Positions 7,663 to 64,000 of a stretch of DNA of 64,000 nt are shown here, in pieces. The position numbers and the translations under genes were made by a program. The notes below the pieces were generated by a model, which was given only the letters and a program-made list of their open reading frames with translations, did no database searches and had not been told where the DNA came from. This DNA comes from Actinomycetospora soli (GTDB lineage Bacteria; Actinomycetota; Actinomycetes; Mycobacteriales; Pseudonocardiaceae). The stretch covers positions 1-64,000 of the forward strand of contig NZ_JAJNDA010000024.1 in the NCBI RefSeq assembly GCF_021026295.1. The letters are read 5' to 3'. Position 1 is the stretch's first letter. Each line of letters starts with the position of its first letter.

Positions 7663-8550
7663 GTGAAGGGAATCGTGCTCGCCGGGGGCAGCGGCACCCG
7701 ACTGCACCCGGTCACCCGGGCGGTCTCGAAGCAGCTCCTGCCGGTCTACGACAAGCCGATGATCTACTACCCGATCTCGGTGCTCATGATCGCCGGCATC
7801 CGGGACATCCTGATCATCTCCACCCCGGTCGACCTCCCCGCCTTCCGGCGGCTGCTCGGCGACGGCTCCGAGTGGGGGGTGCGCTTCTCCTACGCCGAGC
7901 AGGCCGAACCCAACGGGCTGGCCGAGGCCTTCCTCATCGGCGCCGACCACGTCGGCGACGACACCGCCGCCCTCGTGCTGGGCGACAACATCTTCCACGG
8001 CCAGGGCTTCTCGACGATCCTGCAGCGCGCCGTCGCCCAGGTCGAGACCGAGAAGGGCGCCACCCTGTTCGGCTACCCCGTCGGCGACCCCGAGCGCTAC
8101 GGCGTCGGCGAGGCCGACGCCGCCGGCCGGCTGATCTCCATCGAGGAGAAACCCGCGAAGCCGCGCTCGAACCGGGCCATCACCGGGCTCTACCTCTACG
8201 ACAACGACGTCGTCTCCCTCGCCCGCACCCTGACCCCCTCCGCGCGCGGCGAACTCGAGATCACCGACCTCAACCTCGCCTACATGCACCGCGGCGACGC
8301 CCGCCTGATCGACCTCGGCCGCGGCTTCGCCTGGCTCGACACCGGCACCCACGAGTCGCTGATCGAGGCCGGCCAGTACATCTCCGTGCTCGAGCACCGC
8401 CAGGGCGTGCGGATCGCCTGCCTCGAGGAACTCGCCCTGCGCGAGGGCTGGATCACCCCCGAGCACTGCCTCGAACTCGGCCGCGCCCAGGGCAAGTCCC
8501 GCTACGGCGAGTACGTCATGGACGTGGCCCGCCGCAGCGGCGCGGCGTAG
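7663..8550 (+). CDS. rfbA: Glucose-1-phosphate thymidylyltransferase
   Basis: 295 residues, the usual RmlA/RfbA length. It makes dTDP-glucose from glucose-1-phosphate and dTTP, the first step towards dTDP-rhamnose used in the rhamnosyl linker of arabinogalactan and other glycans. Seen: nucleotide-binding [11 protein letters not shown] (residues 8-18), [17 protein letters not shown], the metal-binding [24 protein letters not shown] and [16 protein letters not shown] 7663 gives the canonical MKGIVLAGG start and has a -10 element directly before it. The polysaccharide deacetylase gene follows after 8 bases; rmlBCD are not in the window. Confidence 0.95.
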
Positions 8551-8558
8551 CGGCGGCG

Positions 8559-9458
8559 GTGCGCGACCTCGTCGGGTACGGCCCCACCGCCCCGCTCGCG
8601 CGGTGGCCCGACGGCTCACTCGTGGCGGTCAACGTCGTCGTCAACGTCGAGGAGGGCGCCGAGGCCTCCTGGGCCGACGACGAGGGCAACGACAGCTGGG
8701 GCGAGTACGCGCTGCCGATCGATCCCGCGGTCCGCGACCTCGGCACGGAGGGGCACTACGAGTTCGGCTCCCGCGTCGGGATCTGGCGCCTGGTCCGGCT
8801 CGTCGAGCGGTTCGCGGTGCCGGTGACGTTCGGGGTCTGCGCGCGGGCCCTGGAGCGCAACCCGCCGTTCGCGGCGTGGCTGCGGGCGAGCGACCACGAC
8901 GTGCTGGGCCACGGGTACCGGTGGGCCGAGGTCACGCAGATGACCGAGGACGAGGAGCGCGCCGACCTCGAGCACGCGATGCGGGTGCTGCCGGAGCTGG
9001 TCGGGCGCCCGGTGCGCGGCTGGTACGTGCGCTCCTTCCCCTCGCAGCGCACCCGGCGCCTGGCCGCGGCGCACCCGGAGCTGACCTACGACAGCGACGC
9101 CGTCAACGACGAGCTCCCCTACCGGGTCGAGGTCGGCGGGCGCCCGTGGCTCGTGGTGCCGTACTCGAAGGTCCACAACGACACCCGGTACTTCCTGCCG
9201 CCCACCTACGCGACACCCCGCCACTTCGCCGAGTCCCTGATCGGGGCCGTGGACCTCCTGCTCGACGAGGCCCGGCACGGCGCCGGGGCGCGTCTGCTCA
9301 CCGTCGGCCTGCACCCGCGCTGGAGCGGCCAGGCGTCCCGGGCGGTCGCGGTGCGGGACTTCCTGGCCTGGGCCACGGCGCAGCCGGAGGTCTCGCTGGT
9401 GCACCGGCAGCAGGTCGTGGACTGGTGGGAGGAGTACGTGCCGGAGCGCTCCGGGTAG
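8559..9458 (+). CDS. Polysaccharide deacetylase family protein (PuuE/allantoinase-like branch)
   Basis: 299 residues. Seen: DGSLVAVNVVVNVEEGAE (about 21-38), VTFGVCARALERNP, DHDVLGHGYRWAEVTQM with the HGxxW-type motif, and LLTVGLHPRWSGQ with the second-half catalytic His region. This is the NodB-fold arrangement seen in PuuE-type allantoinases and some chitin deacetylases; metal-dependent amide hydrolysis is likely. The position directly after rfbA hints at glycan modification, while the sequence branch also fits purine catabolism. GTG 8559 is 8 bases after the rfbA stop. Confidence 0.75.
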   Translation: MRDLVGYGPTAPLARWPDGSLVAVNVVVNVEEGAEASWADDEGNDSWGEYALPIDPAVRDLGTEGHYEFGSRVGIWRLVRLVERFAVPVTFGVCARALERNPPFAAWLRASDHDVLGHGYRWAEVTQMTEDEERADLEHAMRVLPELVGRPVRGWYVRSFPSQRTRRLAAAHPELTYDSDAVNDELPYRVEVGGRPWLVVPYSKVHNDTRYFLPPTYATPRHFAESLIGAVDLLLDEARHGAGARLLTVGLHPRWSGQASRAVAVRDFLAWATAQPEVSLVHRQQVVDWWEEYVPERSG

Positions 9459-61983: not shown

Positions 61984-62892
61984 ATGGCACCGACGTGGGG
62001 AATCTCCGGCCCGGCGTTCCTGGGTCTCTGGCTGGTGCTCGCCGTCGTGACGCTCGTGCTGCCACACGTGGCCCGGGCGACGGCCGGACGCCGACCACCC
62101 GGCCGCGAACCCGACCTCACGCTGACGCCCGCCCAGCTCGGCGTGCTCGCGGGCGGCGAGGACCGTGCGGCCGCGGCGAGCATCGCGGGGCTCCTGGAGA
62201 GCGGCCGGCTGCGGGCGGACGACTCCCGCCGGCTGTGCACGGTGGTCGGCCCCGTCCGCCCCGAGGACGACCCGCAGCTCTCCGACCTCGACGTCCGCGT
62301 CCTGCGGGACGCCACCACGCCGCGGGCCGCCTCCGCCCTCGTCGCGACGGTCCGCCACGCCCCCGAGGTCGGGGAGCTCGGTGAGCAGCTGGTCGCGCGC
62401 GGCCTGCTGCACGACCCCGCCGCCGTCCGCCGCCGGCTGCGGCGGGCCTGGATCCCGTTCGGGCTCGTCGTGGTGCTCGGGCTCGCCCGCCTCGCCGCCG
62501 GGCTCGGACGTGGCGCCTCGGTCGGGTTCCTGATGGCGCTCCTGGTCGTCGTCGGGGTCGTCGCCCTCGTGTCGCGGCCCCGCTCGCTGCGCGTGCTCAC
62601 CCCGCGTGGGCAGGCCACGCTCGACGCCGCCCGGGCGTCGGCCCGGCAGGTCCGTCCGCCGGTCGCCGCGGGACCGCCCGGCGTGGCCCCGTGGCTCGGC
62701 GCGGGGGCGCTGCTCGTCGCCGTCGGCGGCTTCGCGGCCTTCCCCGACCCGGCGCTCGCCGCGCTGCTCGTCCCACCGGTCGCCTTCGGCGGCGGCGGCG
62801 GGGGCGGTGACGTCGGGTCCTCGTGCGGCGGGAGCAGTTGCGGCAGCAGCTGCGGGGGTGGCGGCTGCGGCGGGGGCGGGTGCGGCGGATGA
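61984..62892 (+). CDS. TIGR04222-type membrane protein with Cys/Gly-rich C-terminal tail
   Basis: 302 residues. One N-terminal helix ([20 protein letters not shown]), a cytosolic helical region ([34 protein letters not shown], ~40-75), then three helices (~152-171, 176-196, 228-250) and a final low-complexity tail: a run of seven Gly, then about 25 residues of only Gly, Ser and five Cys, plus Asp-Val at its start. Such proteins are regularly encoded next to DUF692 (family knowledge), as here: the stop overlaps that gene. The tail is the likely modification substrate. ATG 61984 has GAGGTGAGG just upstream. Confidence 0.8.
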
Positions 62893-63746
62893 CGCCCGGA
62901 CCCGACGGCCGCCCGGACGGTGTCGGGATCGGCTGGCGCCCGGAGATCGACCGGACGGTGGAGGGCCTCGTCGACGGGGGTGCGGCCGACTTCGTCGAGG
63001 TCGTCGCCGAGGACCTGCGTCCCGACGCCCTGCCGGCCTCGCTGGCGCGGCTGCGCGCTCGCGGGGTCACCGTGCTCCCGCACGCCGTGTCGCTGTCCCT
63101 GGGCGGCGCGGAGGACCTGCGCACCGACCGGGTGGATCACCTCGCCGCGGTCGCGGGCGCCCTCGACGCCCCGCTCGTCAGCGACCACGTGTGCTTCGTC
63201 CGCGCAGGCGGCCTCGAGTCCGGCCACCTGCTGCCGGTCCCCCGCACGCGGGACGCACTCGCCGTGCTCGTCGAGAACGTCCACGTCGCGCAGGACCGCC
63301 TGCCGGTCCCGCTGGCGCTCGAGAACATCGCCGCGCTCGTCGCGTGGCCGGACGCCGAGCTGACCGAGGGCGCGTTCCTCGCCGAGCTGTGCGCCCGCAC
63401 CGACGCGGGCCTCGTGCTCGACGTGGCCAACCTGCACGCCTGCGCCGTGAACCTCGCCCAGGACCCCGCACGGGTGCTCGACGACCTGCCGCTGGAGCGG
63501 GTCGCCTACGTGCACGCCGCGGGCGGTGCCACCGACGGTGACGGGCTCTACCACGACACGCACGCCCACCCGCTCGGTCCGGCGGTGCTCGACCTGCTGG
63601 CGGACCTCCTCGCCCGCTGCGCCGCGGTGGGCGTCCGGCCCGGTGTCCTGCTCGAGCGCGACGACCGCTACCCCGCCGACGCCGAGCTCGCGGGCGAGCT
63701 CGCCCTCCTGCGCGCCACCCGCGACCGCAGCCCGGTGCCCCGGTGA
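62889..63746 (+). CDS. DUF692 multinuclear non-heme iron oxidase (MNIO)
   Basis: 285 residues, TIM-barrel. Seen: [17 protein letters not shown] at the start, LVSDHVCFV (His ligand), [54 protein letters not shown] (Asp/Asn/His), [23 protein letters not shown], all matching DUF692. MNIO enzymes such as MbnB use two or three irons to oxidise Cys and other residues in ribosomal peptides (established). ATG 62889 overlaps the upstream stop by 4 bases; the next gene also overlaps, so three proteins are coupled. Confidence 0.9.
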
Positions 63747-64000
63747 CCGACACCCGCCGTCGGGAACTCGCCGGACGCCAGGCCGCGTTCCTCGCGGCGC
63801 TCGTCGCCGAGGGCCCCGTCCCCGCGGGCTTCGATCCCGCGCGGGTCGCGGCCGAGGCCCGCGCCCTGCACCGGAAGCGCCGACGGGTGCTGGCCCGCAT
63901 CGTCACGGCGATGCTCGACGCGGCGAGCCGGCCGGTGCCGTCGGACCTCGACGACCGACTCGACGCCTGGCTCGCCGGACGGCCGCACCGGACCGGCACG
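63743..64000 (+). CDS. MNIO partner protein, N-terminal part (cut by window end)
   Basis: 86 codons visible: begins [46 protein letters not shown]. This resembles the short helical proteins, often annotated as hypothetical (SCO6045-like), that follow DUF692 in actinobacteria; MNIO enzymes usually need a partner that presents the substrate (family knowledge). GTG 63743 overlaps the MNIO stop by 4 bases. The gene continues beyond the window. Confidence 0.72.

Follow-up and report, generated by a model that had tools for sequence, protein, structure and literature searches.

A cysteine-rich tail on a TIGR04222 membrane protein as a probable substrate of the adjacent MNIO in Actinomycetospora soli

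Described MNIO systems and the published prediction

Among the closest described systems are those of the bufferins and captophorins (BufABC, HvfABC and FonABC), in which an MNIO (family MbnB_TglH_ChrH, formerly DUF692) and a DUF2063-type helper act on repeated Cys-Gly, the product being located outside the cytosol. Their precursors are small peptides or proteins exported by Sec, and their partners belong to PME-type 1, in which DUF2063 is combined with an RRE. MNIO products vary from family to family, according to a table in PMC12452194; for the BufB and HvfB products, the passages of PMC13097082 on this chemistry assign 5-thiooxazole (a loss of 4 Da) in both cases, and describe FonBC (FonB) as preferring the Cys-Gly dyad, tolerating Ala after Cys and rejecting Pro and those charged residues that were tried. 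For 5-thiooxazole peptides, an absorbance near 305 nm is given there.

The TIGR04222 proteins are treated in a section of Antoine et al. 2025 (PMC12452194), where their tails are proposed as MNIO substrates and the accompanying partners are called "PME-type 2". According to that section, the family comprises more than 3,500 proteins, mostly from Actinomycetota, with C-terminal Ser/Gly regions that contain Cys and are predicted to lie outside; the link with an MNIO is frequent and not constant (a third of the genomes with TIGR04222 are devoid of MNIO), PME-type 2 partners occur in at least 10% of the clusters, and the C-proximal Cys are missing in over a quarter. A TIGR04222 peptide is also mentioned, in the corresponding passage of PMC5183585, as part of a bacteriocin-like cluster of Pseudonocardia. 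The kind of locus analysed here has consequently been published already, as a prediction, in 2025: it is not new, and what the present co-occurrence counts do is strengthen the link between the enzyme and its substrate. An earlier note on this DNA, made from the sequence, had set the subtype apart from the known MNIO pathways and had considered both its chemistry and its role as not known. The section on TIGR04222 puts forward the same hypothesis, and chemistry and role are unestablished in that paper too. The paper makes no mention of GPP34, and counts of the co-occurrence of tail and MNIO within a genus were not found in its section on TIGR04222.

The three-gene locus and its products

The window (the whole stretch of DNA analysed, 64,000 nucleotides of Actinomycetospora soli) ends in three genes, confirmed in the sequence, which are joined by two 4-base overlaps (ATGA at 62889-62892 and GTGA at 63743-63746); these overlaps and the Gly/Ser tail with five Cys are as the earlier note had described them. 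The features of the locus and of the first protein are the following:

61984-62892, forward strand: gene 1, TIGR04222 membrane protein, ATG start, 302 amino acids
62800-62889, forward strand: tail-coding stretch, the last 30 residues of gene 1 with five Cys and the end GGGGCGG (from the sequence)
62889-63746, forward strand: gene 2, MNIO, 285 amino acids (PF05114 match)
63743-64000 in the window and to 64072 on the contig, forward strand: gene 3, partner resembling PME-type 2, GTG start at 63743 (contig sequence)
Gene 1 protein, N-terminus: short, with a TWGISGPxFL motif, predicted outside
Gene 1 protein, residues about 10-31, 153-173, 179-198 and 237-255: TM1, TM2, TM3 and TM4 (predicted limits)
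Gene 1 protein, residues about 32-152: main domain, predicted cytosolic by charge analysis
Gene 1 protein, loop between TM3 and TM4: basic (hydropathy and charge, 49 homologues)
Gene 1 protein, residues 268-302: Gly/Ser/Cys tail

Gene 3 has 86 codons inside the window and its last 72 bases beyond it; the full-length product has 109 amino acids, and the gene end at 64072 was read on the contig (coordinates 2743-3072 of locus L002). The locus resembles the clusters in the TIGR04222 section of PMC12452194 in the same three families in the same order, the Gly/Ser C-terminus with Cys, the predicted outside tail, an MNIO near those of the bufferins and a short partner (115 residues in the published exemplar, whose strain is that of locus L213). 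It differs from the bufferin and captophorin systems in that the putative precursor is a multi-TM protein and the partner is short, without a Pfam DUF2063 match.

The gene 1 protein belongs to TIGR04222 (105 bits against a NCBIfam cut-off of 43) and its hydropathy profile displayed four hydrophobic stretches, in agreement with the four-helix membrane protein of the earlier note. The gene 2 protein, previously assigned to DUF692, matched PF05114 with 241.5 bits (cut-off 25). A profile built from 28 of its relatives matched TglH (117 bits) and MbnB chains, and the residues H65, H100, E145, D178, N181, H209, D223, H225 and E256, which we take to be the iron ligands, were invariant in the 28 relatives; equivalents of these His, Glu, Asp and Asn residues are present in the TglH and MbnB alignments, as read by eye. 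The best score among the NCBIfam MNIO models was that of BufB (171 bits), followed by HvfB (137), ApyH (101), ChrH (53) and MbnB (32), all of them under the equivalog cut-offs (310 bits for BufB and 360 for HvfB), so that these models do not place the enzyme among the bufferin or captophorin MNIOs. In a tree, 29 TIGR04222-linked MNIOs and six bufferin MNIOs parted with 100/99 support, the first set having been picked by its likeness to the window enzyme and the tree carrying a long-branch warning; the MNIO of locus L344, without an annotated TIGR04222 gene within 4 kb, sat inside the TIGR04222-linked group.

No Pfam or NCBIfam match, DUF2063 included, was obtained for the gene 3 protein, which bears a precomputed PF26136.1 label. 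The position of its gene after that of the MNIO, with the 4-base overlap, together with the lack of a Pfam DUF2063 match, places it among PME-type 2 partners; with 109 amino acids it is not a DUF2063-RRE protein of PME-type 1. It is 36% identical to a 115-amino-acid protein encoded after an MNIO in Saccharothrix sp. NRRL B-16314. In strain and length, the Saccharothrix protein agrees with the PME-type 2 exemplar WP_033442786 given in PMC12452194. When the partner profile was compared with six DUF2063-type proteins encoded in bufferin operons, the probability was 81% and the score 41.5 (no more than 17.1 for 34 control families and 14.7 for 60 column shuffles); two other alignments gave 73% and 42%. 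Judged by these profiles, the partner is a remote homologue of DUF2063 / NGO1945 / TglI, which fits the partner subunit proposed in the earlier note.

Co-occurrence of the Cys tail and the MNIO

TIGR04222 and PF05114 were present in the same 12 of the 18 Actinomycetospora genomes, three of the 18 being less than 90% complete (G004, without both, and G008 and G014, with both). A MinD-like gene, a neighbour of the trio, is present in 16 of the 18 genomes: the trio adjoins it in six, and in the other 10 the upstream neighbour gene is there and the trio is not (five of these genomes carry it elsewhere and five lack it). These states with and without the trio beside the same gene indicate that it comes and goes as a unit.

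In the wider surveys, TIGR04222 scored above its cut-off in 69 of 246 genomes of the class, 22 of 41 of the relatives, 83 of 150 of the family and 15 of 296 of the phylum. The class set comprised 81 loci from the 69 class genomes plus the own locus, with 84 proteins scored in 77 of them. A first definition of the tail (within the last 45 residues, at least three Cys and a Gly/Ser/Cys share of at least 60%; class table 29/4/20/31) missed short tails such as CGGGGCGGGGCGG; a second one, chosen after the first had been seen, required at least three Cys, of which no more than one could lack Gly, Ser or Ala as the next residue (class table 34/5/15/30). An MNIO was found within 3.5 kb of 34 of the 39 Cys-tailed proteins of the class set versus 15 of the 45 others (Fisher p 6e-7, kinship ignored). 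Counted by genomes, an MNIO is present in 34 of the 35 class genomes that encode a Cys tail, the exception being the draft G524, in which none was found; the 34 class genomes without a Cys tail were distributed between 15 with MNIO, 14 without it and five outside the MNIO search. Those 15 include 12 Streptomycetaceae (family f18), i.e. 12 of the 19 Streptomycetaceae genomes with TIGR04222 have an MNIO and no tail Cys, and in 11 of the 12 the MNIO lies at most 3.5 kb from the Cys-less protein. Three loci (L112, L118 and L142, of genomes G537, G544 and G612) encode a Cys-tailed TIGR04222 protein and lack an MNIO within the fetched stretch; in all three genomes an MNIO is present elsewhere.

The Cys-less Streptomycetaceae proteins present features of their own. 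The 14 listed (L116, L120, L123, L124, L129, L131, L132, L134, L136, L137, L139, L140, L143 and L144) all carry C-x-x-L-C in TM1, and most lie close to a fusion of MNIO and partner-like domain; in L120, a DUF4142 gene (7968-8759, Pfam) separates the Cys-less TIGR04222 gene from the MNIO-partner gene, and a similar protein was noticed by eye in L131. When the Cys-less Streptomyces loci were scanned for a Cys-rich peptide substrate, some Cys-containing ORFs appeared, none of them a plausible peptide, and this candidate was dropped.

The survey anchored on the MNIO covered the best 80 of at least 580 confirmed relatives, some flanks ending at contig ends. TIGR04222 was present in the fetched flank of 74 of these best 80 loci and a tail with at least three Cys in 66: 39 and 36, respectively, of the 40 loci from outside the Streptomycetaceae, and 35 and 30 of the 40 Streptomycetaceae loci. 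All 80 had a match to the partner profile, as a fusion with the MNIO in 36 of them. The earlier note had proposed a membrane-protein Cys tail as MNIO substrate and had named, as the contrary outcome, its absence from most homologues beside DUF692; the genus, class and MNIO-anchored surveys are instead in good agreement with such a substrate. In L205, L213, L221-L225, L248 and other loci, two to four TIGR04222 paralogues with differing tails stand in tandem ahead of one MNIO, suggesting that several tails are served by one enzyme.

The arrangement was seen again across many genera and is, for this reason, more than chance: the three-gene unit is real and widespread, and probably functional. Clustering of the neighbours of 61 loci from 26 genera revealed only lineage-bound flanks beside the trio (named by eye: hemY/hemQ-like in Streptomyces, pheST/argC-like in another family, ccsA/resB-like in Actinomycetospora); since these flanks change with the lineage, a link with heme or cytochrome c was rejected. 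Matches in Tsukamurella records labelled as plasmids were not taken as evidence of plasmid carriage: these records carry housekeeping genes such as mshC, which puts the label in doubt.

Proposed modification and display of the tail

The explanation of the whole locus that we favour, on balance, is that the tail Cys are converted to 5-thiooxazoles and that the tail, located outside, binds copper or another soft metal. The trio would be a self-contained unit of three genes: in the cytosol, its MNIO and DUF2063-like partner would act on the Cys-Gly tail at the C-terminus of the TIGR04222 protein. Both enzyme and partner are, as far as seen, without signal sequences and the tail would finally be outside; therefore, modification would have to precede translocation, taking place before or during the membrane crossing of the tail, which, as the last-made segment, could wait in the cytosol. 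Each targeted Cys would lose 4 Da on becoming a 5-thiooxazole (at most about 20 Da for the five Cys), and the modified tail, fixed by the last transmembrane helix, would be displayed outside as a membrane-tethered counterpart of the bufferins, forming perhaps a surface metal trap. The parts of this explanation differ in strength: the Cys tail is probably the MNIO substrate; 5-thiooxazole is a credible product on which we would not quite rely; and the putative copper role is tentative, as is the metal or redox role of the tail suggested in the earlier note. The counts in the genus (12 of 18), in the class genomes (34 of 35) and around the MNIO (66 of the best 80 of at least 580) speak for the explanation, as do the Cys-Gly pattern and the nearest NCBIfam models, BufB and HvfB, with their 5-thiooxazole products (PMC13097082). 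Against it stand the delay in translocation that a cytosolic enzyme needs for an outside tail, the 15 of 45 Cys-tail-less proteins that are also beside an MNIO, the Streptomycetaceae and G524 genomes described above, the distance between the MNIO and the BufB cut-off, and the placement of L344 in the tree.

The tail Cys are located at residues 281, 286, 290, 295 and 300 of 302 (one further Cys is at 84), and in 24 homologues the last three and the surrounding Gly show little or no variation. Across 62 tails containing three or more Cys, the residue after a tail Cys was Gly in 240, Ser in 41 and Ala in eight of 291 cases, and the residue before it was Gly in 154 and Ser in 123 of 290; Cys-then-Gly was far commoner than Gly-then-Cys, an asymmetry that composition does not explain and that agrees with the preference of the thiooxazole-forming MNIO in PMC13097082. 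In 34 of the 62 tails the last Cys lay exactly two residues before the end (mean of 6.4 and maximum of 17 over 2000 shuffles; kinship kept in), suggesting that the tail end itself matters. This fixed distance, the family-dependent products of MNIOs (PMC12452194) and the scores of the window enzyme under all equivalog cut-offs would also suit a different product of the same tail, such as an oxazolone/thioamide, a cross-link or a cleavage (perhaps at the CGG end), with a part in redox sensing or signalling rather than in the storage of copper; we consider this unlikely, the two nearest models being those with 5-thiooxazole products.

The display of a modified tail depends on the topology, which was derived from hydropathy and charge over 49 homologues. 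Loop 3 has a net charge of +5.1 on average; both basic loops are inside by charge bias and, with four TM helices, the tail would probably be outside. The main domain looks cytosolic in this charge analysis, unlike the large periplasmic domains predicted in PMC12452194. A tail that stays in the cytosol, making of the unit a membrane-anchored cytosolic metal or redox device, would avoid the translocation problem and would fit the shortness of TM4, the weakest among the four stretches; the charge bias and the outside tail also predicted in PMC12452194 make it decidedly improbable. The least probable reading, in which the target of MNIO and partner is a separate peptide, for example, or some other part of the TIGR04222 protein, and the Cys tail acts unmodified, as a metal or disulfide element, would accommodate the 12 Cys-less Streptomycetaceae genomes and the C-x-x-L-C of TM1, and is opposed by the MNIO in 34 of 35 Cys-tail genomes and in all 12 of the genus. 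Residues 268-302 had pLDDT values below 50 in the single-chain model. The TWGISGPxFL motif ahead of TM1 (window 61984-62100; alignment A2) was nearly as conserved as the tail. In L200 (genome G002), the TIGR04222 gene is split over two overlapping frames, by a sequencing error or because the gene is broken.

The main TIGR04222 domain is perhaps GPP34/GOLPH3-like. The gene 1 protein had no match to PF05719 (GPP34) at E up to 1 in the Pfam scan, and Foldseek gave no significant match; identity with GPP34, GOLPH3 or Vps74 is only 16-18%, and the structural alignment extends into the TM helices. A likeness to the DUF2207 C-terminal domain (PF20990) reached 97% in a profile comparison whose set was chosen with the TIGR04222 model itself; the precomputed PF20990 label is borne by five of 52 homologues, and the window protein reached 13.5 bits (cut-off 33). 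In eukaryotes, the GPP34/GOLPH3 fold holds the short tails of Golgi membrane enzymes. It is conceivable, as a long shot, that GPP34/GOLPH3 has membrane-built relatives in the TIGR04222 proteins. Their cytosolic GPP34-like domain would capture the protein's own Cys-Gly tail or dock the MNIO and its partner, the tail being oxidised before the last helix turns it outward; the polytopic protein would then be its own leader, substrate and display scaffold.

Returning to the favoured explanation, Actinomycetospora offers natural pairs with and without the trio, and the 109-amino-acid partner, as a small DUF2063-like unit, lends itself to structural work. Should the tail prove to be modified, the chemistry of MNIOs would extend to permanent membrane proteins, beyond released peptides, and the actinobacteria, which hold most TIGR04222 proteins according to PMC12452194, would possess a fixed metal site at their surface.
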